From a virus: 20,293 bases of DNA. A model generated the notes under the pieces. The model ran no database searches. It had not been told where the DNA came from and was given only the letters and a program-made list of their open reading frames with translations. This document shows, piece by piece, positions 2,660-20,293 of the stretch. Both the position numbers and the translations under genes were made by a program. Location: IMG/VR virus record IMGVR_UViG_3300036715_003246, positions 1 to 20,293 of that record. One strand, given 5' to 3'. Positions within the stretch are counted from its first letter, which is position 1. Every line of letters starts with the position of its first letter.

Positions 2660-4099
2660 TCAACCTCGTCCGAGATTCATCCAAGTAGAAAGGTTATTAG
2701 TTGCCAAGGCATTGAAAGCATCAGCCGAGGCATCTACTTGGTCATCGTGGCTGGTGCCTAGACCGAAGGCTTCCAGCTCTGAAAAGTAAGCCTCGTTCCA
2801 AACACCTCGAAGAACATCCACGTTACCCGCTTGCCATTGTGCCGAAAAGGGCTCAGCACGAGTAACCTTATCACCCGAAATTCGTTCTGTGGTAATGCTG
2901 AATCCTGCTAATTCTTTGGTATAACTTTCACCTTGTTCCTTACCAGCTTGACCTGGATCGATTGCCATATGAACTTTAACTCTTCTGGAATCATTTATTG
3001 CTACCCGTTTAACCAGCTCACGTACTTTAGCACTTCTGAATCGCTCATGTATACAATCCAAAACAATATATTTACCATTCTTACGAACTGCAATCAATAC
3101 TCCAGCTGTCCAGTCTGGGTCTTTATTTGCTTCACTTGGTTCAGTAGCAGCAAGATCCCATGCCCTGACCAATTTGACAAGGTCGTCCGGTACGGTATCC
3201 ACAATAGTACATTCACTTCTCTTGAAATACATACCAGTCACAGTCCGGACTTTCCAGTTTCCATGAAGCAATCGTTCCCGCTCCACCCTTGTTAGTGCCA
3301 TCAAGTTAGCCTTGTAGTCCGGATCAGCATCTGTTAGTGCTTTATTGTCGGATAACTTAGCAGGAATGAAAGTCATTGACTTTGGACGGACCTGATCCTC
3401 ATGGTCATCCGGAAGATCAGGTTTACCGTATTTATCGATAAGTTCTTGTCGACTGTCCGCCCACACAATCGCCTCGGCAACTCGAATGAACCAACGAACA
3501 GCTCCACCGCGTTCAGGAATAGGGTATCCTGTTTCTTGATCGATCCACCAAGCAATGAACTCGGCTACCCAACTTTCACTGTCTGGATTTGTCGTTGCGC
3601 GGACGTATGGTTTAACACCACACACGGAGCGGTTGCGGGATAACATGTAGAAAAACTGGGCTTGTGAAAAATGGGTAAGCTCATCAAACACTATCAAAGG
3701 TATCTGGGATCCTTGCCAATCAAGAACAGAATTCTCATATTCTAAATGTCCCATTTTCACTTTGCCACCCTTTGGCCACCGCCATTCCAGGATGGTGGCA
3801 ACAGGCTGACCACCGGCGAGAGGATAGAGTTTCATTGACTCATCCCATAGACCACCAGGATTACGTATATGAGTAGCATTCTTTCGGAAAAAGACAGCGA
3901 AAAAGTCTTTTACGCTAGTAACATAGCGGAGTGCTTCCAGCAGGATAGCAAAAGATTTTCCAGAACCTGCCGCGCCGCCATAAATGATTATATCAGCATC
4001 GATGGATAGAAAATCTTCTTGAGGTCCTGCCTGCGGTTTAATTACTTTGCGATAAGGTACATTTCTTGGTTTATTATTCTTGTTGGTAAGAGCAGCCAC
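2660..4099 (-). CDS. terL: Terminase large subunit (packaging ATPase and nuclease)
   Basis: The 479-aa protein is the motor that pumps DNA into the procapsid and cuts the concatemer. The N-terminal ATPase has Walker A GGAAGSGKS (residues 41-49), Walker B LIVFDE (135-140, with catalytic E140) and a coupling motif around ATTNPD (168-173). The C-terminal RNase H-like nuclease shows its acidic residues in AWDLAATEP (D315), AIDPGQAG (D381) and SHDDQVDA (D452/D453). The length and motif order fit the Terminase_6 family. It begins 3 bases after the small-subunit stop. All catalytic residues look intact. Whether packaging is cos or headful cannot be told from the sequence alone. Confidence 0.95.
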   Translation of the reverse strand: MAALTNKNNKPRNVPYRKVIKPQAGPQEDFLSIDADIIIYGGAAGSGKSFAILLEALRYVTSVKDFFAVFFRKNATHIRNPGGLWDESMKLYPLAGGQPVATILEWRWPKGGKVKMGHLEYENSVLDWQGSQIPLIVFDELTHFSQAQFFYMLSRNRSVCGVKPYVRATTNPDSESWVAEFIAWWIDQETGYPIPERGGAVRWFIRVAEAIVWADSRQELIDKYGKPDLPDDHEDQVRPKSMTFIPAKLSDNKALTDADPDYKANLMALTRVERERLLHGNWKVRTVTGMYFKRSECTIVDTVPDDLVKLVRAWDLAATEPSEANKDPDWTAGVLIAVRKNGKYIVLDCIHERFRSAKVRELVKRVAINDSRRVKVHMAIDPGQAGKEQGESYTKELAGFSITTERISGDKVTRAEPFSAQWQAGNVDVLRGVWNEAYFSELEAFGLGTSHDDQVDASADAFNALATNNLSTWMNLGRG

Positions 4100-4757: not shown

Positions 4758-5381
4758 TCAACCGTAGGTAGATCCCTGATACCGTGGAGTAAATACCACT
4801 TGTGATGTTGCTTGAGTAGACCAGGTTGAAGGGATATCAGCTTCGTATTTATAAGATTCCAATATCTTCTCAATGTAATGAATCTTGACAATTTCGTTAT
4901 CCAACGAGTCCAGGATCATTCGTTGCCTTGCAATATTGTTATTCAAGATGGCAAATAGAATTTTGTTGTCACCTTTTAACCGAACAACAGCTTGTTCATA
5001 TTTTTCAATCTTCCGCAGGATGCCGAGACGAGTTGAAGCACTCTGGGCTACCACTGTATTTAGATGAGCAGCCATAGATGCCAATATGTCCACAGTTGAA
5101 ATATCGTGTGTTTGATTCAGCGTTGACATTAACAATTCATTTAGTGCCATCATGGCTTGAGCGTGCATGCCGTCCGGATTACCATCATCACCGGTTTCGT
5201 CATAACGAGCGCGTTTCTCTTCATCAGACAAGAGGTCATAGGCATGCTTGACCTTGCCAAATATTTCAGCATCACCTGTATCCTTGTCAGGGTGATGCTT
5301 TTGTGCTAGCTTCTTATAAGCTGTTTTAATTTGCTCGGCAGTGGAATCTTGAGCAATGCCTAGTATTTCATACAAGTCCAT
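4758..5381 (-). CDS. Phage J-domain (DnaJ-like) co-chaperone
   Basis: The first 65 residues form a full J-domain: MDLYEILGI at the N-terminus, the AYKKLAQKHHPDK helix II with the essential HPD at residues 30-32, and the KVKHAYDLLSDEEKRARYDE helix III-IV region. J-domains stimulate the ATPase of a DnaK-type Hsp70. No Gly/Phe-rich linker or zinc domain follows, so it is a class III J-protein. Residues about 75-207 are mostly helical and unrecognised, and presumably bind a specific client. The ATG at 5381 has AAGGA 7 bases upstream; a longer frame from 5417 would overlap the previous gene and lacks a better site. It lies just upstream of terS, so a role in recruiting host DnaK to head assembly or to replication complexes is an inference. 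Confidence 0.9.
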   Translation of the reverse strand: MDLYEILGIAQDSTAEQIKTAYKKLAQKHHPDKDTGDAEIFGKVKHAYDLLSDEEKRARYDETGDDGNPDGMHAQAMMALNELLMSTLNQTHDISTVDILASMAAHLNTVVAQSASTRLGILRKIEKYEQAVVRLKGDNKILFAILNNNIARQRMILDSLDNEIVKIHYIEKILESYKYEADIPSTWSTQATSQVVFTPRYQGSTYG

Positions 5382-5382
5382 T

Positions 5383-5685
5383 TTAAATTCCTTGGTATTT
5401 GATGTGGTAGATTTCATTGGTGTAATGTTTCACCTCTCCATTTTCACCCTTTACCATCCAATCCCCTACTCTTAAAGTGAAGATTTCATTATTTAATCTG
5501 ACCATTAAGAGATCATCATATTTAAGCAGTCGGCATACAAGCCCTGAACAAAGTTCTTGCATCTTGTCCAGGTTGCTACCATCCCATTGCACTGATTCCC
5601 CATAATAGGCAACCTTTTTACAATTATATCGATAGTGCAATCCATCATTACCGTTAGTGCCAACTATATCTATTCTGCTAGTCAT
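5383..5685 (-). CDS. Conserved small phage protein with GDWMVKGENGE motif
   Basis: This 100-aa protein has a C-terminal stretch VGDWMVKGENGEVKHYTNEIY that resembles a very common phage protein type. Its members carry a GDWI(I/V)KG(V)xGE motif, usually followed by a short Cys/Lys/Pro segment and an Asp/Glu-Ile-Phe/Tyr end. The function of that family is unknown to me. The chosen ATG at 5685 overlaps the preceding stop as ATGA, and an AGGAG site lies 11 bases upstream; an in-frame ATG at 5712 is possible. Its stop lies one base before the J-domain gene start, so the two are probably coupled. Two Cys residues (YNCKK, ELCSGLVC region) do not form a clear metal site. Confidence 0.72.
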   Translation of the reverse strand: MTSRIDIVGTNGNDGLHYRYNCKKVAYYGESVQWDGSNLDKMQELCSGLVCRLLKYDDLLMVRLNNEIFTLRVGDWMVKGENGEVKHYTNEIYHIKYQGI

Positions 5686-10001: not shown

Positions 10002-12230
10002 CTAATTGTTAGTGAAGCCTCTGCCAATTCCATAAGCCACTCCAGAATAATCATACTTTTCCGCCAATTGTGGTTTGGCAATTTCGACCAACATTCCTGA
10101 ATCAATCATGACCTGCACGTTACGTTTTAAAGAGTTGGTGGCGCCCATCTTATCCGCTTTGAAACTAGACAATGAAGCAGTCTGTCTAATTAAATAAGCA
10201 TACGGAATAATTTTGGCGGCATGTAACTTGCGCCCAATATCTGTTCTTGCTGCGAAAGCACAATCGGGTTTGTAATACAATTCCACTACCCTGCGCAGGT
10301 CTGCCAATTGCTTGCTGTCACCAGTGCCCACATCCCCTTCTTTAAACCGCGCCACAACTAGGCTTACGTCAGCGACAACGAAAGTGATAGCCCACTGGGC
10401 AAGCTCGGCGGTGACAACTGGGTTATGCGGGTTTATGCCCACTGCTAATAGTGCAGCTAATTTCAATGCTTTCAAGTGGGCACGGTTCCACACTTGCATT
10501 TCCACGTCCATTTTCGCACTATTCATAATTGCATCTGCGCGAATATCAAAATCGTCCAATAGTTGTAAACTGTGGTCATCTATAGTTACTTGCTTGACCA
10601 TATTATTATTAGTGGTAGTCAAACTAATAGTAATCAAATCGGCAAATTTCTGTGCCAGGTCCTTGGATGGCGGATGATTAGGATTGCGATTGCGTGGCGG
10701 ACGATCGCCGGTATATTCTATGATAGAAAAACGCGGAATTAGACCTTCAGCAATGTGGCTGGAATCCAAACCATCGAAAAAGGTTTCCGGAGTTGACTCA
10801 CCTAGAATCGATACATTGGGTGATTGCACTATGGCAGTATTCTTTTCTGTATCACTATAAACGGAGGATCTTAGCATTCTATTCCATCCAGATTTAGCAT
10901 AAAGGTCGAGCAATACTTTGCGTAGCATCACCTGCGAACTATTGGCGCGGCGGTCTGATATTTGTTGCAGGGTCAAACCAAACTCGCCTAGTACTGAAAC
11001 AAAGCAAGGGCGATCATTTAATACTTTGACTAAAGCCTGTCCGGATGCGAAAGCTGCTGGACCGAGGAATTGGTCTGCCATTGGCAATTGTGGGCGGATA
11101 GCTGCTATTAAATTTTCAATACCGGATAGGGCGCCTTCTTTACCGGATCCTGTTCTGGCTAATAGAATTAGATATTGATTAAGACCAGAACCACTAATGT
11201 TGTAACTTCGCCCGCTTACCCCTGCGACTACGGCAAGGGCAGCGGCCAATGCTATTTCACGAACAGGGCGGATAGCAGTACTATAAAAGTATTCAGCTAA
11301 TTCGCCGACTAATCCTGGAGGATAATCAAGTGCCTGTTTAGACACAATTACCTGCTTGGGTTTAGGCTTGGTTAATGGTTCGGCATTAAAGGATAGCTGT
11401 GTCATATCCACAGGTGGTGGTTGCTGGGCGCGTATTTTACCGAGGGCGAAATCCAGATAGGTATTGTTGCGGATGGCTTTTTCGCGCTTGCCAAGTTTCG
11501 ACATCCTGAATAACCTGCGCACTTGTTCGTCACTACGAGAATAATAAGCCAGGATGGATAACAAGGCGAAATCAGCTTCGGATTGGCTTTCATAACCCGT
11601 TTGGTTCCCTTGGCAGAGTGCGTCGAACTTGTCCCCGTTGCTAGCAGCCGATGCCATGTTAACAATATCTATATCTTCCAGGCTTTGCCCCTGTTCTATC
11701 AAATCGCTAGTTTCAGATGGCTTCATTTCCCCGTAGAGTACGTTAAGTAAAGCTTGGTAGTCCACTATCGGGATATTACGCAGGATATTGCCGGTACAAA
11801 CCATATAGCGTTCTGATGAATAAACTTCCACATTATCCCTATGAACACCTGCAGGTAATTTACCTTTGACTATTATATGGACGCCAGTGCCCGAAGTACT
11901 CAACTCGGTATAGCTATTGAACGACTCATATATTTTCTGGTGCCGCGCTAGCTGTTCCGGTGTACAGGGTTTATCTGCTTTATTATCCAGGTCAATAATC
12001 GTGTAGGGATCATCAGCGGTTAGGACTAAACCAATACCATCATAATTACCCTTTTGACTGGCTAGTAAAGCAGTATTAAAATCAGTCCAGGTATCTGACT
12101 TGGTAACACTTGCCTTAGACTTACGAGTTGCACAATAAGGAATTTTAGTTTGTTTGCCGTCGATTGTTTCATATTTCCAAAGTACCCATTGATGCAGATT
12201 TTTCAATTCTGCTGGAATGTTAGTTAACAT
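10002..12230 (-). CDS. Primase-polymerase (AEP) fused to helicase-like ATPase
   Basis: This 742-aa protein has two parts. Residues 1-165 are an archaeo-eukaryotic primase (PrimPol) domain: an HQWVLWKYE...KTKIPY-type entry (11-32), TWTDF (47-51), YDGIGLVL (63-70), the metal-binding IIDLDN (D80, D82), the STSGTGVHI motif (111-119, H118) and VEVYSSERYMVCTG (134-147). Residues about 190-270 match the helical region of NrS-1-like phage polymerases (YESQSEADFALLSILAYY). Residues 300-740 form a DUF3987-like ATPase with Walker A ARTGSGKEG (359-367). Such fusions prime, and in some phages also polymerise, while unwinding the template. AAAAGGG lies 9 bases before the ATG. No other DNA polymerase is present in the window. 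Confidence 0.85.
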   Translation of the reverse strand: MLTNIPAELKNLHQWVLWKYETIDGKQTKIPYCATRKSKASVTKSDTWTDFNTALLASQKGNYDGIGLVLTADDPYTIIDLDNKADKPCTPEQLARHQKIYESFNSYTELSTSGTGVHIIVKGKLPAGVHRDNVEVYSSERYMVCTGNILRNIPIVDYQALLNVLYGEMKPSETSDLIEQGQSLEDIDIVNMASAASNGDKFDALCQGNQTGYESQSEADFALLSILAYYSRSDEQVRRLFRMSKLGKREKAIRNNTYLDFALGKIRAQQPPPVDMTQLSFNAEPLTKPKPKQVIVSKQALDYPPGLVGELAEYFYSTAIRPVREIALAAALAVVAGVSGRSYNISGSGLNQYLILLARTGSGKEGALSGIENLIAAIRPQLPMADQFLGPAAFASGQALVKVLNDRPCFVSVLGEFGLTLQQISDRRANSSQVMLRKVLLDLYAKSGWNRMLRSSVYSDTEKNTAIVQSPNVSILGESTPETFFDGLDSSHIAEGLIPRFSIIEYTGDRPPRNRNPNHPPSKDLAQKFADLITISLTTTNNNMVKQVTIDDHSLQLLDDFDIRADAIMNSAKMDVEMQVWNRAHLKALKLAALLAVGINPHNPVVTAELAQWAITFVVADVSLVVARFKEGDVGTGDSKQLADLRRVVELYYKPDCAFAARTDIGRKLHAAKIIPYAYLIRQTASLSSFKADKMGATNSLKRNVQVMIDSGMLVEIAKPQLAEKYDYSGVAYGIGRGFTNN

Positions 12231-13060: not shown

Positions 13061-13243
13061 ATGGCTAATGATAGTATTGCTAAAGTCTTGATGGAACGGG
13101 ATGGTATGTCGGCAGATGAAGCTGAGTTGGCAGTACGCGATGCCCGTATGCGGGTTTGCGATGGGGAAGATCCCGAAGAGATTTTGTATGACGAATTTGG
13201 TTTAGAACCTGATTATTTTTTCGATTTAATGGAGACTTTGTAA
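13061..13243 (+). CDS. Small acidic phage protein (60 aa)
   Basis: This 60-aa protein reads SIAKVLMERDGMSADEAELA, then VRDARMRVCDGEDPEEILY, ending DEFGLEPDYFFDLMETL. It has the look of a familiar phage small protein: two helices, a DGEDPEEIL turn and a GLEPDY(F/V)FDL end. It is strongly acidic. Its function is unknown. It begins 2 bases after the preceding stop and its own stop directly touches the ATG of the ATPase gene, so it is cotranslated with both. It may be a partner or inhibitor of one of its neighbours, but only position suggests this. Confidence 0.82.
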   Translation: MANDSIAKVLMERDGMSADEAELAVRDARMRVCDGEDPEEILYDEFGLEPDYFFDLMETL

Positions 13244-14074
13244 ATGGGAATTTTAGATTATGTGAATCATTCATCACAGCGCACCGGTATTCGTGCTGTG
13301 ATATCTGGTGTTGAAAAGGTTGGTAAGACCACCTTGGCATGTTCAGCACCTCGGGTGCTCCTAGTACCTTTAGAGCAGGGGTATGGTGGAGTTAGTGTTA
13401 ACAAAACACCAATGCTGGAAACCTTTGCAGATTTAACGATGTTGATGGAAGAGATTATAGTGAAGGTGCAAGCCGGACAATTTCCCTATCAGACTTTAAC
13501 TTTTGATAGTGCTACTGCATTGGAGCGACTGATCCATGATGCAGTGCTGCGCACTGATCCCACTTGGGGAAAAGGTAATCCCAGAGCATTAACTATGGAA
13601 TCTGCCTTGGGTGGTTACGGTAAGGCTTATCAATACGCTAATGAGTTGTTCCACAATTTCCTGGTTAAATGTGATTGGCTGGCAAATAACGGTGCCATTA
13701 ATATTCTGTTAACCTGTCATGTCTTTCCTGCTAGAGTGGTTGATCCAACTGCTGGTGAGTATGATTCTTGGGACTTGTTATTGCATTCACCTAAGAATCA
13801 AAAGGCATACGGCAAACGAGAAATGCTTACCCAGTGGGCGGATTTGATTGGTTTCCTGCACGAGCCTCTATTCGTCACCGAGGGCAAAACCTTGAACAAA
13901 GGTATTAGCGCCAACAAAGGTCGTATTCTGGCAGTGAATAGAACACCCGCCTATGTAGCGGGTAATCGATATGGTATAATTAACGATGTAGCAATACCAC
14001 AAACTAGCGGTTGGAATCATGTGGCGCAAGCCATACATACTTCATGTGGTCAAGACTTTTTTAACAGAGACTGA
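13244..14074 (+). CDS. RecA-like ATPase, AAA_24 / Sak4-type single-strand annealing protein
   Basis: The 276-aa protein has Walker A GVEKVGKTTL (residues 22-31), a Walker B-like strand TLTFDSAT (84-91, D88), and a later ILLTCHVFP strand. The short RecA-core layout without RecA's DNA-binding domains fits the AAA_24 family, which includes the Sak4 phage annealases. Those proteins pair complementary single strands and work with the phage SSB. Here a DUF669 SSB-like gene lies two genes downstream and an exonuclease-type gene follows, completing a recombination set. It starts directly after the preceding stop, with GGAG 9 bases upstream. Distinguishing Sak4 from other AAA_24 members would need a profile search. 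Confidence 0.82.
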   Translation: MGILDYVNHSSQRTGIRAVISGVEKVGKTTLACSAPRVLLVPLEQGYGGVSVNKTPMLETFADLTMLMEEIIVKVQAGQFPYQTLTFDSATALERLIHDAVLRTDPTWGKGNPRALTMESALGGYGKAYQYANELFHNFLVKCDWLANNGAINILLTCHVFPARVVDPTAGEYDSWDLLLHSPKNQKAYGKREMLTQWADLIGFLHEPLFVTEGKTLNKGISANKGRILAVNRTPAYVAGNRYGIINDVAIPQTSGWNHVAQAIHTSCGQDFFNRD

Positions 14075-14085
14075 AAGGTAGCAAA

Positions 14086-14268
14086 ATGGAAAATCTCACT
14101 ATGTCACAAAAAGGCAATATTCTTACCATTGAAATTGACATCAGTAAGCGCGGCAATAAAAGCACTTCTGGTAAATCAATTATTGTTGCCTCTACCGGTG
14201 GCAATATAGCAGTTCCAGGCAATGAGCACGTGAAACTAGGTCTCAATTGCTACGTAGCAGCAAAGTAG
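14086..14268 (+). CDS. Conserved small phage protein (60 aa), beta-rich
   Basis: The product reads LTMSQKGNILTIEIDISKRG, then a Ser/Lys-rich turn STSGKSIIVASTGGN, then PGNEHVKLGLNCYVA. This two-part beta pattern (GNxLTIxIDxSK and SGKxxxxASTxGN) is common in phage proteins of this size, usually beside recombination genes; the function is not known to me. GAAAGG lies 7 bases before the ATG. It is sandwiched between the RecA-like ATPase and the SSB-like protein, so a helper role in strand annealing is possible. Confidence 0.82.
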   Translation: MENLTMSQKGNILTIEIDISKRGNKSTSGKSIIVASTGGNIAVPGNEHVKLGLNCYVAAK

Positions 14269-14300
14269 TATCTTTTTAATCCAACAGGAGATTTACAATC

Positions 14301-15008
14301 ATGGCAACACTTAATTTTGATTCAACTAATGTAGCACCAGCAGTCGCCCCTGAAGCTATCCCTGCAGGCTGGTATCCAGTCTATATGTCAGCTTCCGAAA
14401 TGAAACCAACTACTAAAAACGATGGTTTCTATCTGTCAACAGAATTTACCATTATGGACGGTCCTTATGCTAAACACAAGCTGTACGATCGTATAAATTT
14501 GCAGAATGCCAATCCAGTAGCAGTGGACATCGCATATAAAACCTTGTCAGCTATCTGCCATGCTGTTGGTGTAATCCAAGTAGCTGATTCCGCTCAACTG
14601 CATAATCGTCCACTAATGGCGAAAGTATCATTGCGCGCTGCCGGTCTTGGTGCAGATGGCAAGCAATATGATGCTAGTAATGAAATTAAAGGTTATAAGG
14701 CTTATGAACAAGTCATGGCAGTACCCGTGCAAGTTGCCCCGATTGCTCCACCGGTTATTGCGGCACCGGTTGCCGCACAACCAGCATGGGCAGCAGCACC
14801 CGCACCAGTTGCACCGGCACCGGTCGCAGCAGCGCCAGTTGCACCACCTGTTACCCAAGCAGCACCTATTCCAGCAGCACCAACTCCTGGAAATTGGGCA
14901 CCTCCTGCTCAAACGGTAACTGAAGTACCGGCAGCACCTGTTCAAGCAGCGCCGGCAGCTGAGGTTCCTGCAAGTAGTGCACCGGTTCCACCTTGGATGG
15001 TAGGTTAA
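14301..15008 (+). CDS. DUF669 protein, single-strand DNA-binding-like
   Basis: Residues 1-140 match the DUF669 pattern: LNFDSTNV at the start, PAGWYPVYMSASEMKPT, FYLSTEFTIMDGPYAKHKLYDRINLQN, YKTLSAICHAVGV and LMAKVSLRAAGLG(A)DGKQYDASNEIKGY. This family is regarded as the SSB-like partner in phage recombination operons. Residues about 145-235 are a low-complexity Ala/Pro/Val tail ending SSAPVPPWMVG, comparable to the flexible tails of SSBs that recruit partners, but without the acidic DDDIPF-type tip. Dense antisense Cys/Arg/Trp frames over this tail are only shadows of the biased composition. AGGAG lies 10 bases before the ATG. Confidence 0.85.
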   Translation: MATLNFDSTNVAPAVAPEAIPAGWYPVYMSASEMKPTTKNDGFYLSTEFTIMDGPYAKHKLYDRINLQNANPVAVDIAYKTLSAICHAVGVIQVADSAQLHNRPLMAKVSLRAAGLGADGKQYDASNEIKGYKAYEQVMAVPVQVAPIAPPVIAAPVAAQPAWAAAPAPVAPAPVAAAPVAPPVTQAAPIPAAPTPGNWAPPAQTVTEVPAAPVQAAPAAEVPASSAPVPPWMVG

Positions 15009-15018
15009 TTAGTACATT

Positions 15019-15087
15019 CCATTCTCGAAAGAGAGTGGTTTGTTGAAGGTAGCAACTGTGGTCAAACTGCTATCTTCACCAAACTAC
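15019..15087 (+). ncRNA. Tandem RNA hairpins immediately before the nuclease gene
   Basis: In the 91-base gap after the DUF669 gene, two hairpins can form in the transcript. The first pairs 15019-15026 with 15031-15038 (8 pairs, one G-U) around a GAAA tetraloop. The second pairs 15035-15054 with 15068-15087: 19 of 20 positions pair, two of them G-U, around a 13-base loop. The long stem ends one base before the GAGGAG ribosome site (15088-15093). The stems share only 15035-15038, so they compete slightly. No T-run follows, so this is not an ordinary terminator. It is better seen as a processing or translation-control element. Confidence 0.65.
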
Positions 15088-15099
15088 GAGGAGCAATAA

Positions 15100-16083
15100 A
15101 TGAAACTTGCCACATTAACGTTAGCAGCTATCGAAGAATCATTAGTTAAAGATCAGGGCGCCAGATTTCGCGGCTTTCTTGGGGAATTGATGCCCCTTGC
15201 TGGCGATGCTTACAGTACAAAAGAAGATGATTTCCGGAATCATCTTGGGGCATCTTTAATAGGTAGGGAATGTGCCCGTGAAGTCTGGTACGGCTTTCGC
15301 TGGGCTACCCGCAAACGTTTTGATGGTCGTATGCTTAGACTATTTAATCGTGGGCATCTTGAGGAACCACGTTTTGTAGCCTTGCTTATGATGATAGGTT
15401 GTGAAGTTTGGCAAGTGGATGTCAATGGCAAGCAATTTAGAATCGGCGGTCACAAAGGTCATTTTGGTGGTTCCATGGACGGAGTTGTTCGAGGTTTGCC
15501 TGATTTGCCCAATGAAGCAGTACTGACAGAATTCAAAACTCATGGTGATTCCTCATTTACCAAATTAGTGGCTTCAGGGGTATTGTCTGCTAAATGGGAA
15601 CATTTTATTCAGATGCAAATTTACATGGGTAAAAACGGTCTACAGTGGGCATTATATGCAGCGGTGAATAAAAACAACGATGCTATTCATATGGAATTGG
15701 TTCAATTTGACAATGTCCAATACCAGCGTTATTTGGATCGCTCAGTTATGATAATAGATTCCCTAACTCCGCCGCCTAAAATAAATGAAAGTCCAGGCTG
15801 GTTCAAGTGCAAATTTTGCGACCACAAAGATGTCTGTCATGGCAAAGCATTACCTGATAGAAACTGTCGAACTTGTGCACATGCTGCACCGCTGGAAAAT
15901 GGATTATGGGAATGTGATTTGCCAGTGTGTGTGGAATGCCTAAAGCCACAGAAACTGGCAAACGGTTGGGTTTGTGATAATGGGCACGGTGGTGCGGATT
16001 TCATTCATGAATTAATTACACCAGAAAAACAGCGTGTCGGTTGTGATGCTTATGAAATGAATCAGTCTATTAAAGGATTGTGA
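15100..16083 (+). CDS. RecB/Cas4-like PD-(D/E)XK nuclease with probable 4Fe-4S site
   Basis: The 327-aa protein has RecB-family nuclease motifs: H86 (NRGHLEE), D127 (GGSMDGVV), E144 and K146 (LTEFKTHGD), and Q171/Y175 (HFIQMQIYM). Cys58 (RECARE) with C237, C240 and C246 (CKFCDHKDVC, a C-X2-C-X5-C) reproduces the split Cys pattern that holds a 4Fe-4S cluster in Cas4, AddB and Dna2-type nucleases. A further Cys-rich tail follows (C256, C259, C272, C277, C280), probably zinc-binding. It likely resects DNA ends to feed the annealase. GAGGAG lies 6 bases before the ATG, just after a strong hairpin. The stop overlaps the helicase start by one base. Confidence 0.85.
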   Translation: MKLATLTLAAIEESLVKDQGARFRGFLGELMPLAGDAYSTKEDDFRNHLGASLIGRECAREVWYGFRWATRKRFDGRMLRLFNRGHLEEPRFVALLMMIGCEVWQVDVNGKQFRIGGHKGHFGGSMDGVVRGLPDLPNEAVLTEFKTHGDSSFTKLVASGVLSAKWEHFIQMQIYMGKNGLQWALYAAVNKNNDAIHMELVQFDNVQYQRYLDRSVMIIDSLTPPPKINESPGWFKCKFCDHKDVCHGKALPDRNCRTCAHAAPLENGLWECDLPVCVECLKPQKLANGWVCDNGHGGADFIHELITPEKQRVGCDAYEMNQSIKGL

Positions 16084-18791
16084 TGAAACCGCGCGACTAC
16101 CAGGAATATGCGGTTAACAGTATATTCGACTATTTCATCAAAGGCGGTACCGGCAATCCGCTGGTTGCCATGCCAACCGGCTGCCATGCTGCGGGACAGG
16201 GCATTCTGATGTTTGATGGAACAATCAAATTAGTTGAGCAAATCGAAATAGGTGACAAGTTAATGGGACCGGATTCTACTGCCAGGACGGTTCTGCAGCT
16301 TTGTAGAGGGCGACAAAACATGCGTAGAATTGTTCCGACTAAGGGAACCGCGTGGGAAGTGAATGAAGACCATATTCTTGCTCTATATCGTTGTCAACAA
16401 AAAACCAATTCCAAATTCAAAAGTCATAAAAGCGGATTTCTGAATCAGAGTATTGTTGAATATGAAAAAACTAGTAAATGGAATCAACATTTCCACAAGT
16501 TATATAGAGTGGGTGTAGATTTTCAAGAGACTTGCTCGCTTCCACTTGATCCCTATTTCCTAGGTGTTTTTCTTGGGGATGGTAGCTATACTCAGCCCGG
16601 TGTAAATATTACATCCATGGATTCTGAAATTTTAGAATATTGCGAAAATATTATATTAAGTCACGGAGACTTAATTCGACTTTCTTCTAATGGTTCCAAA
16701 GCCTCTTGTCTGTTTGCAACAACTAAAAAACGGGGTCGTGGACCTCGAACCAATACCGCCTATTTTTTAGACGCTCTAGGATTACGAGGCAAAGACTCTT
16801 TTTCTAAGTTTATTCCTTCGATTTATAAAACTGCGTCCAGAAAAAATAGATTAGCATTGCTTGCTGGATTGATAGATACTGATGGATCATGTGACGGGTA
16901 CGGTTACGAATACTGTACTGTTTCTAAGCAGCTGGCAGACGATTTTTTATTTATTGCAAGAAGTCTTGGATTAGCTGCATATTCTAAATATAAGAACAAA
17001 GGGTCTGGGTATTATCGGATAAATTTGAGCGGAAATTTAGAAGAGGTTCCTTGTCTGCTTCCTCGAAAACAAGTTTCTAAAAGAACTCAAAAAAAGAACG
17101 TATTAGTTACCGGTTTTAAGATAGAAAAATTACCAGAAGCAGAATACTATGGTTTCACATTGACTGGGGATCATTTATACTTATTGGATGATTTCACAGT
17201 GACTCATAATACCGGTAAATCTGTGATCCTAGCTGAATTTATTCGCAGAGCATTTGAGCAGTATCCTTATACTCGAATAATGAAGCTAACTCATGTAAAA
17301 GAATTAATCGAGCAGAATTGGGAAAAGCTGCTGTTAATTTGGCCGACTGCCCCTGCTGGTGTTTATTCATCTGGACTTGGTAAAAAAGAGGCCGGATTTC
17401 CAATTACCTTCGGTGGTGTGGGAACAGTAGCTCGTGCTAAACCTGAATCTTTCGGTAGGGTAGACTTATTACTTATTGATGAATGTCATTTGGTATCCCC
17501 GAAAGAAAGTACCCAGTACCAAAAAGTGATCAGTATGTTGAAGGTGGCTGCTCCTCATTTGAAAGTGATAGGCTTTACTGCTACCCCGTATCGGTTGGGA
17601 CAAGGTATGCTTACGGATGAAGGTGGATTGTTTACAGATGTTTGTTGCGATATGACCACACTTGATTCCTTCAATTGGTTTATCGACGAAGGTTATTTGG
17701 CACCCCTCATTCCAAAACGTACTTTGGTAACCTTGGATGTATCGGGTGTACACATAAGCGGCGGTGAGTTCAAAGCGGACGAATTACAGGCTGCAGTAGA
17801 TAAGAGTGAAATTACCCGTGCCGCAGTGCAGGAAATGATAGCACATGGAGAAGGTCGAGATCATTGGTTGGTATTTGCCTCGGGTATTGAGCATACTTTT
17901 AACGTTGCTGCCATGCTACAAAGTTTTGGTATTTCCACCACCTATGTTCATTCTAAAATGGGCGACGCGGAAAGAGATGCCAATATTGCCGACTTCGTAG
18001 CTGGTAAGTATAGAGTCATGGTAAACAACGGTATCCTTACTACCGGTTTCGATTTTCCAGGAATAGATTTAATTGGTATTTTACGCCCAACGCAATCCCC
18101 GTCCCTCTGGGTGCAGATGCTAGGCAGAGGGACTCGACCTTTTTATATTAAAGGTTACAATTTGGGAACTCGGGAAGGCAGATTGGAGTCCATTGCCAAC
18201 AGTGCTAAACAGAATTGTCTGGTAATGGACTTTGCAGACAACACCAAACGGTTAGGTCCAATCAATGATCCGGTTTTGCCTAGAAAGAAAAGTAAAGGCG
18301 CGTCCGGCACTGCTCCTGTTAAAATTTGCGAGGCCTGCAATACTTATAACCATGCTAGTGCTCGATTCTGTGTTAGTTGTGGTCAGGAATTTCCGAAGCT
18401 TGTCAAAATACGGCAATATGCAAGCACTGATGAATTAATTGCGTCAGGGCAAGCCGAAATGCCGATTACCGAAATCTTTAAGGTGGATCGGATCATATAT
18501 AATGAGCACCGGAAAGATGGGCGCCCTGCTAGTATTCAGGCTAGTTATTTCTGTGGTATGCGCATGTTTAAGGATTGGATATGTTTGGAACACGGTGGTT
18601 TGGCAGCTAAGAAAGCAAGGGATTGGTGGCGCAAGGCTTCAGGTGAACCGCCAGCTAGCACTTTAGAAGCCTTATCCAGGTTGGACGAATTAAAGTCCCC
18701 AATGTTTATCAAAGTATGGCTGAAGCCTAAGTATGATGAAATTTTAGGGGTCGATTATGAAGGTAATGGTAATTTTGGAGATATTAAATGA
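16083..18791 (+). CDS. SF2 DEAD/DEAH-type helicase precursor interrupted by an intein
   Basis: The 902-aa precursor is a superfamily 2 helicase whose Walker A motif is split. MPTG (residues 30-33) and TGKS (377-380) are parted by a 343-aa intein, and splicing would leave a 559-aa enzyme with MPTGTGKS. Other helicase motifs are the DECH box (466-469), TAT of motif III (499-501) and QMLGRGTRP of motif VI (678-686). A C-terminal zinc ribbon follows (C749, C752, C763, C766). It probably unwinds DNA during replication or recombination. The ATG at 16083 shares one base with the nuclease stop; a GTG just before it is less likely. Without splicing the P-loop is broken and the helicase should be inactive. 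Confidence 0.92.
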   Translation: MKPRDYQEYAVNSIFDYFIKGGTGNPLVAMPTGCHAAGQGILMFDGTIKLVEQIEIGDKLMGPDSTARTVLQLCRGRQNMRRIVPTKGTAWEVNEDHILALYRCQQKTNSKFKSHKSGFLNQSIVEYEKTSKWNQHFHKLYRVGVDFQETCSLPLDPYFLGVFLGDGSYTQPGVNITSMDSEILEYCENIILSHGDLIRLSSNGSKASCLFATTKKRGRGPRTNTAYFLDALGLRGKDSFSKFIPSIYKTASRKNRLALLAGLIDTDGSCDGYGYEYCTVSKQLADDFLFIARSLGLAAYSKYKNKGSGYYRINLSGNLEEVPCLLPRKQVSKRTQKKNVLVTGFKIEKLPEAEYYGFTLTGDHLYLLDDFTVTHNTGKSVILAEFIRRAFEQYPYTRIMKLTHVKELIEQNWEKLLLIWPTAPAGVYSSGLGKKEAGFPITFGGVGTVARAKPESFGRVDLLLIDECHLVSPKESTQYQKVISMLKVAAPHLKVIGFTATPYRLGQGMLTDEGGLFTDVCCDMTTLDSFNWFIDEGYLAPLIPKRTLVTLDVSGVHISGGEFKADELQAAVDKSEITRAAVQEMIAHGEGRDHWLVFASGIEHTFNVAAMLQSFGISTTYVHSKMGDAERDANIADFVAGKYRVMVNNGILTTGFDFPGIDLIGILRPTQSPSLWVQMLGRGTRPFYIKGYNLGTREGRLESIANSAKQNCLVMDFADNTKRLGPINDPVLPRKKSKGASGTAPVKICEACNTYNHASARFCVSCGQEFPKLVKIRQYASTDELIASGQAEMPITEIFKVDRIIYNEHRKDGRPASIQASYFCGMRMFKDWICLEHGGLAAKKARDWWRKASGEPPASTLEALSRLDELKSPMFIKVWLKPKYDEILGVDYEGNGNFGDIK
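16182..17210 (+). mobile_element. Intein with LAGLIDADG homing endonuclease
   Basis: This in-frame insert encodes 343 aa from Cys1 (CHAAGQGILMFDG) to Asn343, followed by Thr as the +1 residue. Splicing blocks are complete: block A at 1-13, block B GTAWEVNEDHIL (55-66, H64), block F EYYGFTLTGDHLYLLDD and block G FTVTHN with the penultimate His342. The central endonuclease keeps both dodecapeptide motifs, YFLGVFLGDG (125-134, D133) and LLAGLIDTDG (226-235, D234), so it may still cut an intein-less allele and spread. The insertion point, inside a P-loop that tolerates no change, is typical of inteins. Confidence 0.95.
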
Positions 18792-18997
18792 ATACCTATG
18801 GTGAAAATATAAATGATTTTAGAGACATGAGTACCGTGTTATTTGGAGAAAATATCAAGCGGCAGATAATAAAATCCTGCCTTAATTGTATAAATTTTAA
18901 TGAGAAGGATGAAACCTGTTTATTGGCAAAAGCGCGCCCACCTGCTCGGATAATAGTATTCGGTTGTCCTCAGTGGGATGCAGATATACCGTTTTGA
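18788..18997 (+). CDS. Small Cys-containing phage protein (69 aa)
   Basis: The product holds SCLNCINFNEKDETCLLAKA and ends RPPARIIVFGCPQWDADIPF. The pattern CxxCxxF...ETCxLAxxRPPAxxIVxGCxxWxxDIPF is one I recognise as recurring in phages, always small and of unknown function. The four Cys (31, 34, 43, 60, approximately) could bind zinc or a cluster. The ATG overlaps the helicase stop as ATGA, and GGAG lies 7 bases upstream, so it is coupled to the helicase. It is the last gene before the terminator at 19008-19040. Confidence 0.82.
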   Translation: MNTYGENINDFRDMSTVLFGENIKRQIIKSCLNCINFNEKDETCLLAKARPPARIIVFGCPQWDADIPF

Positions 18998-19007
18998 ATT
19001 AGACCCT

Positions 19008-19040
19008 ATATAGCCTGATTAGAAATTGGGCTATATTTTT
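19008..19040 (+). terminator. Rho-independent terminator of the recombination operon
   Basis: ATATAGCC (19008-19015) pairs perfectly with GGCTATAT (19029-19036) around a 13-base loop and runs into five T (19036-19040). It lies 10 bases after the last stop of the rightward operon. The stem is AT-rich but the T-run makes it convincing. Confidence 0.75.
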
Positions 19041-19091
19041 GTCCGAAAGATCAATCAAATAAAAATAATTGGTTTTGTTCGCAGAAAGGTG

Positions 19092-19120
19092 TTGCAAACC
19101 TTATAAGGTCATCTTATAAT
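19092..19120 (+). promoter_or_regulatory. Strong rightward promoter with 12-bp palindrome as spacer operator
   Basis: TTGCAA (19092-19097), a 17-base spacer and a perfect TATAAT (19115-19120) form a sigma70 promoter. The spacer starts with the perfect palindrome ACCTTATAAGGT (19098-19109). The core CCTTATAAGG recurs only at 9918-9927, in the origin-like gap, and a near-copy CCTTATAGG overlaps the ribosome site region (19171-19179). The rest of 18998-19188 holds only the upstream terminator and the leader. Confidence 0.85.
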
Positions 19121-19188
19121 GGGTACATGGTTAGGAAAACATCAAATCCAAACCATAAATCAACAGCCACCCTTATAGGAGTAACATC

Positions 19189-19767
19189 ATGGAAAACGTA
19201 AAATTTTATTCTACCAAAGCCAACGCAAATCGCGCAGCCAAAGCCAAATTTGCAGAGTTTACAACAGTTGAAGTCGAGGGTCAAGGTTGGAAAATCCTGG
19301 AACTCGAAGCCAAACCAGTTGCCCCTTCCGTATCAGAAATCGGTGACGATGTTTATGCTTACAACATTCACGGTTTATTAAATTGCCCGCATTGTGGTTG
19401 CCACCTTTCAAACGGGATTGGCGAACATATGGATGAGGTTAACGGTAACTATATTAAACATGACAAATATCAATTTGAATGTTTGGCTTGCAACAAAGAA
19501 TTTGGTCCAGAAATTCTCAAGCCGTTAAAAGGGTCAAAAGCTACGCACACTGTTGCTAACTTTTCAACAGTCGAACGCCCATGTAAAAAGGTTTGGTGGA
19601 TTGCAGACGAAATGATAACCGCTAATCCTAAGGTAAAGCGCGGCGCAGTTCTAGCTGAATGTGTAAAACAGGGCATTGCCTTTTACACAGCTCGTACCCA
19701 GTACCAGCAATGGTTGAGCGTTCGCAAAGAAATGGCAGAGCGCGAAGCACAACAGGCTACTAAATAA
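19189..19767 (+). CDS. Zinc-ribbon phage protein with C-terminal VWxIADEM module
   Basis: This 192-aa protein has three parts. Residues 1-50 (FYSTKANANRAAKAKF) are basic and helical. Residues about 65-105 form a zinc ribbon with CPHCGC and FECLACNKEFG. Residues about 125-180 carry RPCKKVWWIADEMITANP, then KRGAVLAECVKQGIAFYTARTQYQQW, a module common in phage proteins and HTH-like in appearance. It probably binds DNA or RNA, but the target is unknown. AGGAG lies 7 bases before the ATG. It is the first gene of a separate transcript with its own operator-bearing promoter and is followed by a hairpin, so it may be an abundant early product. Confidence 0.8.
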   Translation: MENVKFYSTKANANRAAKAKFAEFTTVEVEGQGWKILELEAKPVAPSVSEIGDDVYAYNIHGLLNCPHCGCHLSNGIGEHMDEVNGNYIKHDKYQFECLACNKEFGPEILKPLKGSKATHTVANFSTVERPCKKVWWIADEMITANPKVKRGAVLAECVKQGIAFYTARTQYQQWLSVRKEMAEREAQQATK

Positions 19768-19774
19768 TTAAAAT

Positions 19775-19795
19775 CAGGGCGATTTCGTCGCCCTG
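19775..19795 (+). terminator. GC-rich hairpin between two genes, possible partial terminator
   Basis: CAGGGCGA (19775-19782) and TCGCCCTG (19788-19795) are perfect 8-bp arms around TTTCG. On the plus strand only TTACT follows, so termination would be leaky. On the minus strand ATTTTAATTATT follows, a somewhat better tail. Partial termination would lower expression of the next gene compared with the zinc-ribbon gene. Confidence 0.6.
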
Positions 19796-19820
19796 TTACT
19801 AAACTATAAAGGACTATATC

Positions 19821-20293
19821 ATGTCAAAATATATGCTTATCGATGTTACTTCTGATTCCACAATTTCGCTGCTCAAAATAGCACCTTTACGAGAAATTCA
19901 ATTGTGGGGTAAAATCTATCAAGCTGAAAATAAAAAGGTGATGGCACCGCCGGTACTTGGGCGTGGCTTTGCCAAGCTTAATTTGTTACAGCTACAGTAC
20001 CTATATTACCACCTAACCGATGGTAAAGTTCCGCCTGCTGATTATACAGAACTGACTGCTGCTTGTTTTGCAATCGTTGGCGCTATGCCTTTGGATGAAA
20101 CCCCGATAAAATCGTTACAAACAAAAGTAGATAAATTGTATCCAGATGGTGGTCTAACCGCCAAGTCCCAAGAAGAAGCAAAAGAGAAAAAGCAGAAGGT
20201 CAAAGATCCATTAGAACGACCAAAGGCTACCTCCACCACTGGTTTGGTTTGGGAAATTTGTGATGGTCTTTTTGCCAAAGCCAATGCGATGCC
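19821..20293 (+). CDS. Phage protein with C-terminal VWEICDG module, cut by window end
   Basis: An ATG with AAAGGA 7 bases upstream opens a frame that stays open to the window end, giving at least 157 aa. The N-terminal part (KYMLIDVTSDSTISLLKIAP) is mixed, then an aromatic stretch LLQLQYLYYHLTDGKVPP, then a Lys/Gln/Glu-rich linker (KSQEEAKEKKQKVKDPLER). The visible end, RPKATSTTGLVWEICDGLF, repeats the theme VWxI(A/C)D seen in the preceding gene. Phage proteins with RPKxxxxTGxVWEIAD are familiar; their function is not known to me. The 3' end is missing. Confidence 0.78.
   Translation, partial: MSKYMLIDVTSDSTISLLKIAPLREIQLWGKIYQAENKKVMAPPVLGRGFAKLNLLQLQYLYYHLTDGKVPPADYTELTAACFAIVGAMPLDETPIKSLQTKVDKLYPDGGLTAKSQEEAKEKKQKVKDPLERPKATSTTGLVWEICDGLFAKANAM

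Follow-up and report, generated by a model that had tools for sequence, protein, structure and literature searches.

A class-1 intein with a LAGLIDADG homing endonuclease in the Walker A motif of a RadD-like phage helicase

The Walker A loop of an SF2 helicase encoded by a tailed phage (IMG/VR record IMGVR_UViG_3300036715_003246, positions 1 to 20,293; this whole 20,293-nucleotide stretch is referred to here as the window) is interrupted by an in-frame insert that, with a probability we place at about 95%, is a mobile class-1 intein carrying a LAGLIDADG homing endonuclease, its splicing and homing being predicted from comparison. The helicase is RadD-like. Inteins lying in the P-loops of helicases, recombinases and phage terminases are already established (PMC5874633, PMC5050341, PMC6195587), and with such elements known from phage ATPases the window intein taken alone is an ordinary case. 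Its value lies in being well resolved and accompanied by relatives with empty sites, and in giving access to a large family whose register of insertion tracks the intein lineage and not the host protein; it opens the question of how endonuclease target and splicing compatibility jointly confine inteins to Walker A loops.

The precursor gene occupies positions 16080..18791 (+) with 903 open codons, starting at either a GTG (16080) or an ATG (16083) that overlaps the stop of a Cas4-type exonuclease gene. It matches the DNA helicase family phrog_16 at 3e-85, and Pfam recognizes ResIII, Helicase_C and Hom_end_hint, the first two placed outside the insert. The N-extein (16080..16181, +) ends in MPTG, with which Walker A (motif I) begins, and the C-extein (17211..18791, +) opens with the other half, TGKS, whose Thr is the +1 residue, and continues as the body of a RadD-like SF2 helicase that includes a Cys4 zinc finger. 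Similarity to RadD/YejH spans both RecA-like domains (E. coli RadD, PDB 6jde, 2e-45, residues 377-686). The match to the RadD equivalog model NF053632 (1e-66) scores 225 bits, below the 720 bits required for membership, and by sequence the enzyme is a phage relative within phrog_16 and not RadD itself.

The insert begins at codon 35, a Cys at 16182, and ends with Asn343 at 17210, exactly 343 amino acids between MPTG and TGKS (16182..17210, +), an assignment in which boundaries, Pfam, sequence match, alignments and predicted structure were all brought to bear. It displays the features of a class-1 intein, namely an invariant Cys at position 1 as N-terminal nucleophile (block A, 16182..16184, +), a block B N61-E-D-H64 (16362..16373, +) whose His is invariant in both intein alignments, a penultimate His and terminal Asn (His342-Asn343, block G, 17205..17210, +) followed by the +1 Thr, and a Hint fold. 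Between the two Hint halves lies a homing-endonuclease domain at about intein residues 118-305 (16533..17096, +), with the two motifs of a LAGLIDADG enzyme and an acidic residue in each: FLGVFLGDGSY with Asp133 at the catalytic position (16557..16589, +) and LAGLIDTDG with Asp232 (16860..16886, +). Pfam matches inside the insert are Hom_end_hint (PF05203, 8e-20), LAGLIDADG_3 (1e-9) and Hom_end. Residues C1, H64, D133, D232, H342 and N343 are unchanged across the window intein and 31 diverse relatives, and among the matches listed Cys1 and the terminal His-Asn are present in every complete intein relative (168/168). The sequence-only reading had proposed a full-length intein here, with all splicing blocks and two intact LAGLIDADG motifs, and its coordinates, length and motifs proved exact. 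The G+C content of the insert (0.379, with GC3 of 0.289) is lower than in the extein (0.437, with GC3 of 0.40); this would be consistent with a foreign origin but proves nothing. Searches for RNA families and tRNAs found none.

An AlphaFold model of the intein, built from the alignment of 32 natural sequences, has a mean pLDDT of 93.8 and a pTM of 0.91. Its best Foldseek match is PI-SceI (1e-23), which is also matched by sequence (8e-21), and the VIA-align superposition with PI-SceI takes in residues 1-343, both intein ends included (Z 31.7, rmsd 3.2, 330 aligned). The model aligns also to the Prp8 and DnaE inteins, and I-DmoI-type structures align to residues 117-305. PI-SceI, the yeast VMA1 intein (PDB 1ef0/1lws/1vde), is thus the best solved relative by sequence and full-length fold, and like the window intein it has class-1 splicing residues and a two-motif LAGLIDADG endonuclease; it differs in its length (454 aa vs 343), is about 25% identical and interrupts the V-ATPase A subunit at IYVG/CGERG (a slash marks the insertion point), some 20 residues N-terminal to the P-loop site. 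The idea that PI-SceI is itself a P-loop intein was considered and ruled out, since the alignment of chain 9cop (IYVG/C...N/CGER) and published data (PMC2814812) put its site about 20 residues upstream.

Evidence for an inserted element also comes from relatives that lack it, the closest helicases (57-63% identical) having an unbroken MPTGTGKS. The nearest public-phage helicases, those of Variovorax phage VPv64, Pseudomonas phage Baskent_P4_1 and Stenotrophomonas phage vB_SM_ytsc_ply2008005c, are 62-63% identical to that of the window, and in each of them MPTG-TGKS or the equivalent sequence is continuous. Several IMG/VR relatives, 51-58% identical, likewise have an unbroken Walker A motif, and MPTGTGKS is uninterrupted in L022, L023, L024, L012, L002, L035 and others. 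Excising the insert from the window gene produces this same MPTGTGKS. A chance origin of the insert is excluded by the E-values together with this exact restoration of the empty site. That the insert might be an ordinary helicase domain or an assembly chimera, as the continuous reading frame through it would allow, is hardly credible: it is a complete Hint plus endonuclease unit, the relatives without it restore the motif exactly and already refute the idea, an identical gene occurs on a second IMG/VR contig (sibling contig 3300035661_000401), and another phage contig has a 62%-identical intein at the same site. The comparison of close phages with and without the insert, proposed from the sequence alone, thereby came out in favor of an intein and against a normal helicase domain.

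We propose that the precursor is translated whole and that Cys1, Thr+1 and Asn343 would carry out standard splicing, in which the 343-aa intein is set free and MPTG becomes linked to TGKS; the product would be an active helicase about 559 aa long (559 predicted from the ATG at 16083, 560 from the GTG at 16080), an expectation that rests on residue conservation and on the resemblance of the fold to PI-SceI. Either the excised intein or the precursor would then cut this site in co-infecting phages whose alleles lack the intein, and repair would copy the intein in. The P-loop may be favored as the most conserved stretch, offering a stable DNA target at which imprecise loss would destroy the enzyme. 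That the intein has spread is shown by the disagreement between intein and helicase histories, by the empty sites among the nearest helicases and by members of one intein family occupying an identical register in P-loop ATPases that are unrelated to each other.

On a tree of 39 helicases, intein presence changes 7 times, at least 5 of these changes being forced by well-supported branches, and the window helicase is placed beside empty alleles; the sample was joined from separate intein and helicase searches, so that the count of 7 describes patchiness and is not an estimate of rate. The closest intein (L036), 62% identical and at the same site, resides in another phage contig within a helicase that is 55% identical to the window's. 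Other inteins remain about 40-50% identical, with values of 40-46%, while their host helicases fall from 50% to no detectable similarity, and it is this persistence of intein identity that shows, by sequence comparison, that the intein has moved horizontally between host genes, with homing as the presumed mechanism. Related phages lacking the intein, which the sequence-only reading had envisaged as targets, do exist, and the joined 40-bp site of the window, the candidate endonuclease target, is identical at 34/40 bases to those of Baskent_P4_1 and VPv64. Cleavage even at this nearest empty site is uncertain given the 6/40 differing bases; judged from anatomy and phylogeny, endonuclease activity and an advantage during co-infection are plausible. 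Inteins commonly pass through cycles in which the endonuclease decays, and the window intein could be one that still splices while its endonuclease is dead and its inheritance now vertical only. We consider this unlikely and the endonuclease probably active, in view of the two intact LAGLIDADG motifs with D133 and D232 (each invariant, 32/32), the full-length endonuclease fold predicted with high confidence, and the conflict between intein and host trees in the window's own neighborhood. The intein of the sibling contig is identical, so selection on the endonuclease is not measurable from that pair.

The surroundings of the gene bear on what the helicase does. It closes a cluster that comprises a Sak4-like annealing ATPase (13244..14074, +; phrog_124, 9e-22), a DUF669/single-strand-binding-like protein (14301..15008, +; Pfam and PHROG matches) and, directly upstream, the Cas4-domain exonuclease (15100..16083, +; phrog_1990, 8e-104). 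This exonuclease is also shared by Baskent_P4_1 and VPv64, where it adjoins the helicase; Baskent_P4_1 has the same exonuclease-helicase gene order. On the other strand is a 742-aa primase/helicase with an NrS-1 polymerase-type domain (10002-12230, -; PF22763, phrog_3022), the probable replication initiator. A role of the intein-bearing helicase in recombination and repair during replication is likely, and the earlier suggestion that splicing might gate the timing of replication finds no support, because the helicase is nearest to RadD/YejH, lies in a recombination cluster apart from the NrS-1-like primase, and has close relatives without an intein.

More broadly, the intein could be a regulatory switch whose conditional splicing, responding to redox state, metals, temperature or stage of infection, times helicase activity. 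Other P-loop inteins, that of mycobacterial DnaB among them, are documented to splice conditionally, and a P-loop RadA precursor lacks ATPase function (PMC6195587); in the window protein, too, ATP binding would have to await splicing. The sequence holds no evidence on the rate or control of splicing, and we regard a switch as very improbable, for the nearest phage helicases work without an intein, the intein shows the patchy distribution that a mobile element should have, the splicing residues are all canonical, the enzyme is a RadD-like helicase of a recombination cluster and not a replicative fork helicase, and the P-loop terminase inteins of mycobacteriophages spliced quickly in a reporter (PMC5050341).

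Several known phage inteins resemble that of the window. Those in helicases of Klebsiella phage YX3973, Jedunavirus JD001 and Salmonella Jerseyvirus belong to the same family, are 39-45% identical and also lie in Walker A, whereas their host helicases are only distantly similar to the window's (under 30% or no detectable similarity). The YX3973 intein has exactly the register of the window intein; those of JD001 and the Salmonella phages lie three residues downstream (GK/T). GenBank phage records already use the annotation 'intein containing helicase precursor', although a search of the available papers for such a helicase in Salmonella phages found nothing. The mycobacteriophage terminase inteins TerL1-a and TerL1-b are likewise phage inteins within Walker A, in a different host protein and in two registers, TerL1-a at K/T and TerL1-b one residue away, and splicing (of TerL1-b and others) and cleavage have been shown experimentally (PMC5050341). 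The archaeal V/A-ATPase intein site also lies between Lys and Thr (PMC2814812). Bacterial DnaB P-loop inteins are of the same family as the window's but form a separate intein clade, occupy the GK/T register and interrupt a cellular replicative helicase.

Family searches seeded with intein residues only, without extein sequence, matched at least 570 viral and at least 440 cellular-genome relatives. Among the matches listed, all 171 relatives with both intein ends start in a Walker A loop, some of these loops being degenerate; the query alignment consisted of P-loop inteins, and relatives outside P-loops may be under-sampled. The window's register, G/xGK, accounts for 90 of the 171 and GK/[ST] for 76, while five are unclassified (one with the Walker A Lys replaced by Met, one with a degenerate GLHK/T and three DnaB-like genes with GK/ on the N side). 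Host proteins include DnaB, a Toprim-DnaB primase-helicase, archaeal Cdc6, ClpX, a type II/IV secretion ATPase, AAA proteins and several SF2 helicases. Mapped onto the intein tree, the register changes only 3 times, against a mean of 44.6 after shuffling, and it is therefore heritable with the intein lineage, which it follows even across unrelated ATPases.

These patterns allow the tentative reading, to which we assign somewhat less than an even chance, that the lineage of the window intein is specialized for Walker A loops as such, having kept a single register (G/xGK) while jumping among non-homologous P-loop ATPases (SF2 helicases, Cdc6, ClpX, the secretion ATPase, primase-helicase) with phages as carriers, and that a separate lineage keeps GK/[ST]. 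If so, the P-loop would be a common landing pad recognized across genes. A description of this register-by-lineage pattern was not found in a shallow search of a literature collection with few subscription journals. Two candidate explanations of the register or site were rejected. Intein residue 2 is His in 84/90 inteins of the first register and Leu in 66/76 of the second, but L165 and L102, which break this rule, have the residue typical of their clade, and residue 2 is better read as a lineage marker than as a determinant. Extra conservation of the site at the DNA level was likewise discarded, as wobble positions hold 0.23-0.30 bits vs 0.8-1.4 at codon positions 1-2; the flanking conservation, limited to positions 1 and 2, is explained by protein constraint.

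Within the family, seven Cdc6/Orc1-like proteins of archaeal Nitrososphaerota MAGs (L125-L128, L138, L139, L141) carry an intein of this kind in the Walker A loop, their host family being assigned by Pfam for L125 and by matching flanks for the other six. In three DnaB-like genes (L170, L188, L193) the match to the intein family extends over 651-945 residues beginning at Walker A, which suggests two inteins in one gene or one much longer intein. One intein-bearing helicase (L080) has its Walker A lysine replaced (TGMS), and the spliced enzyme would probably be without ATPase activity, unless the change is a sequencing error.

Elsewhere in the window, the terminase (2660-4099, -) is closest, at about 50-53%, to those of Rhizobium phages and Methanoculleus (archaeal) viruses, affinities that differ from those of the helicase and exonuclease (Pseudomonas, Stenotrophomonas and Variovorax phages) and therefore point to a mosaic genome. 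A J-domain (DnaJ-like) protein with an HHPDK motif (4758-5417, -), whose PHROG matches are of unknown function, adjoins the terminase genes. Finally, the sibling contig (L001/L016) is identical to the window over 13182-19229 and then shows 70 differences up to 20288, a sharp boundary (19230-20288) suggesting either that phage variants have recombined or that the assembly is chimeric.
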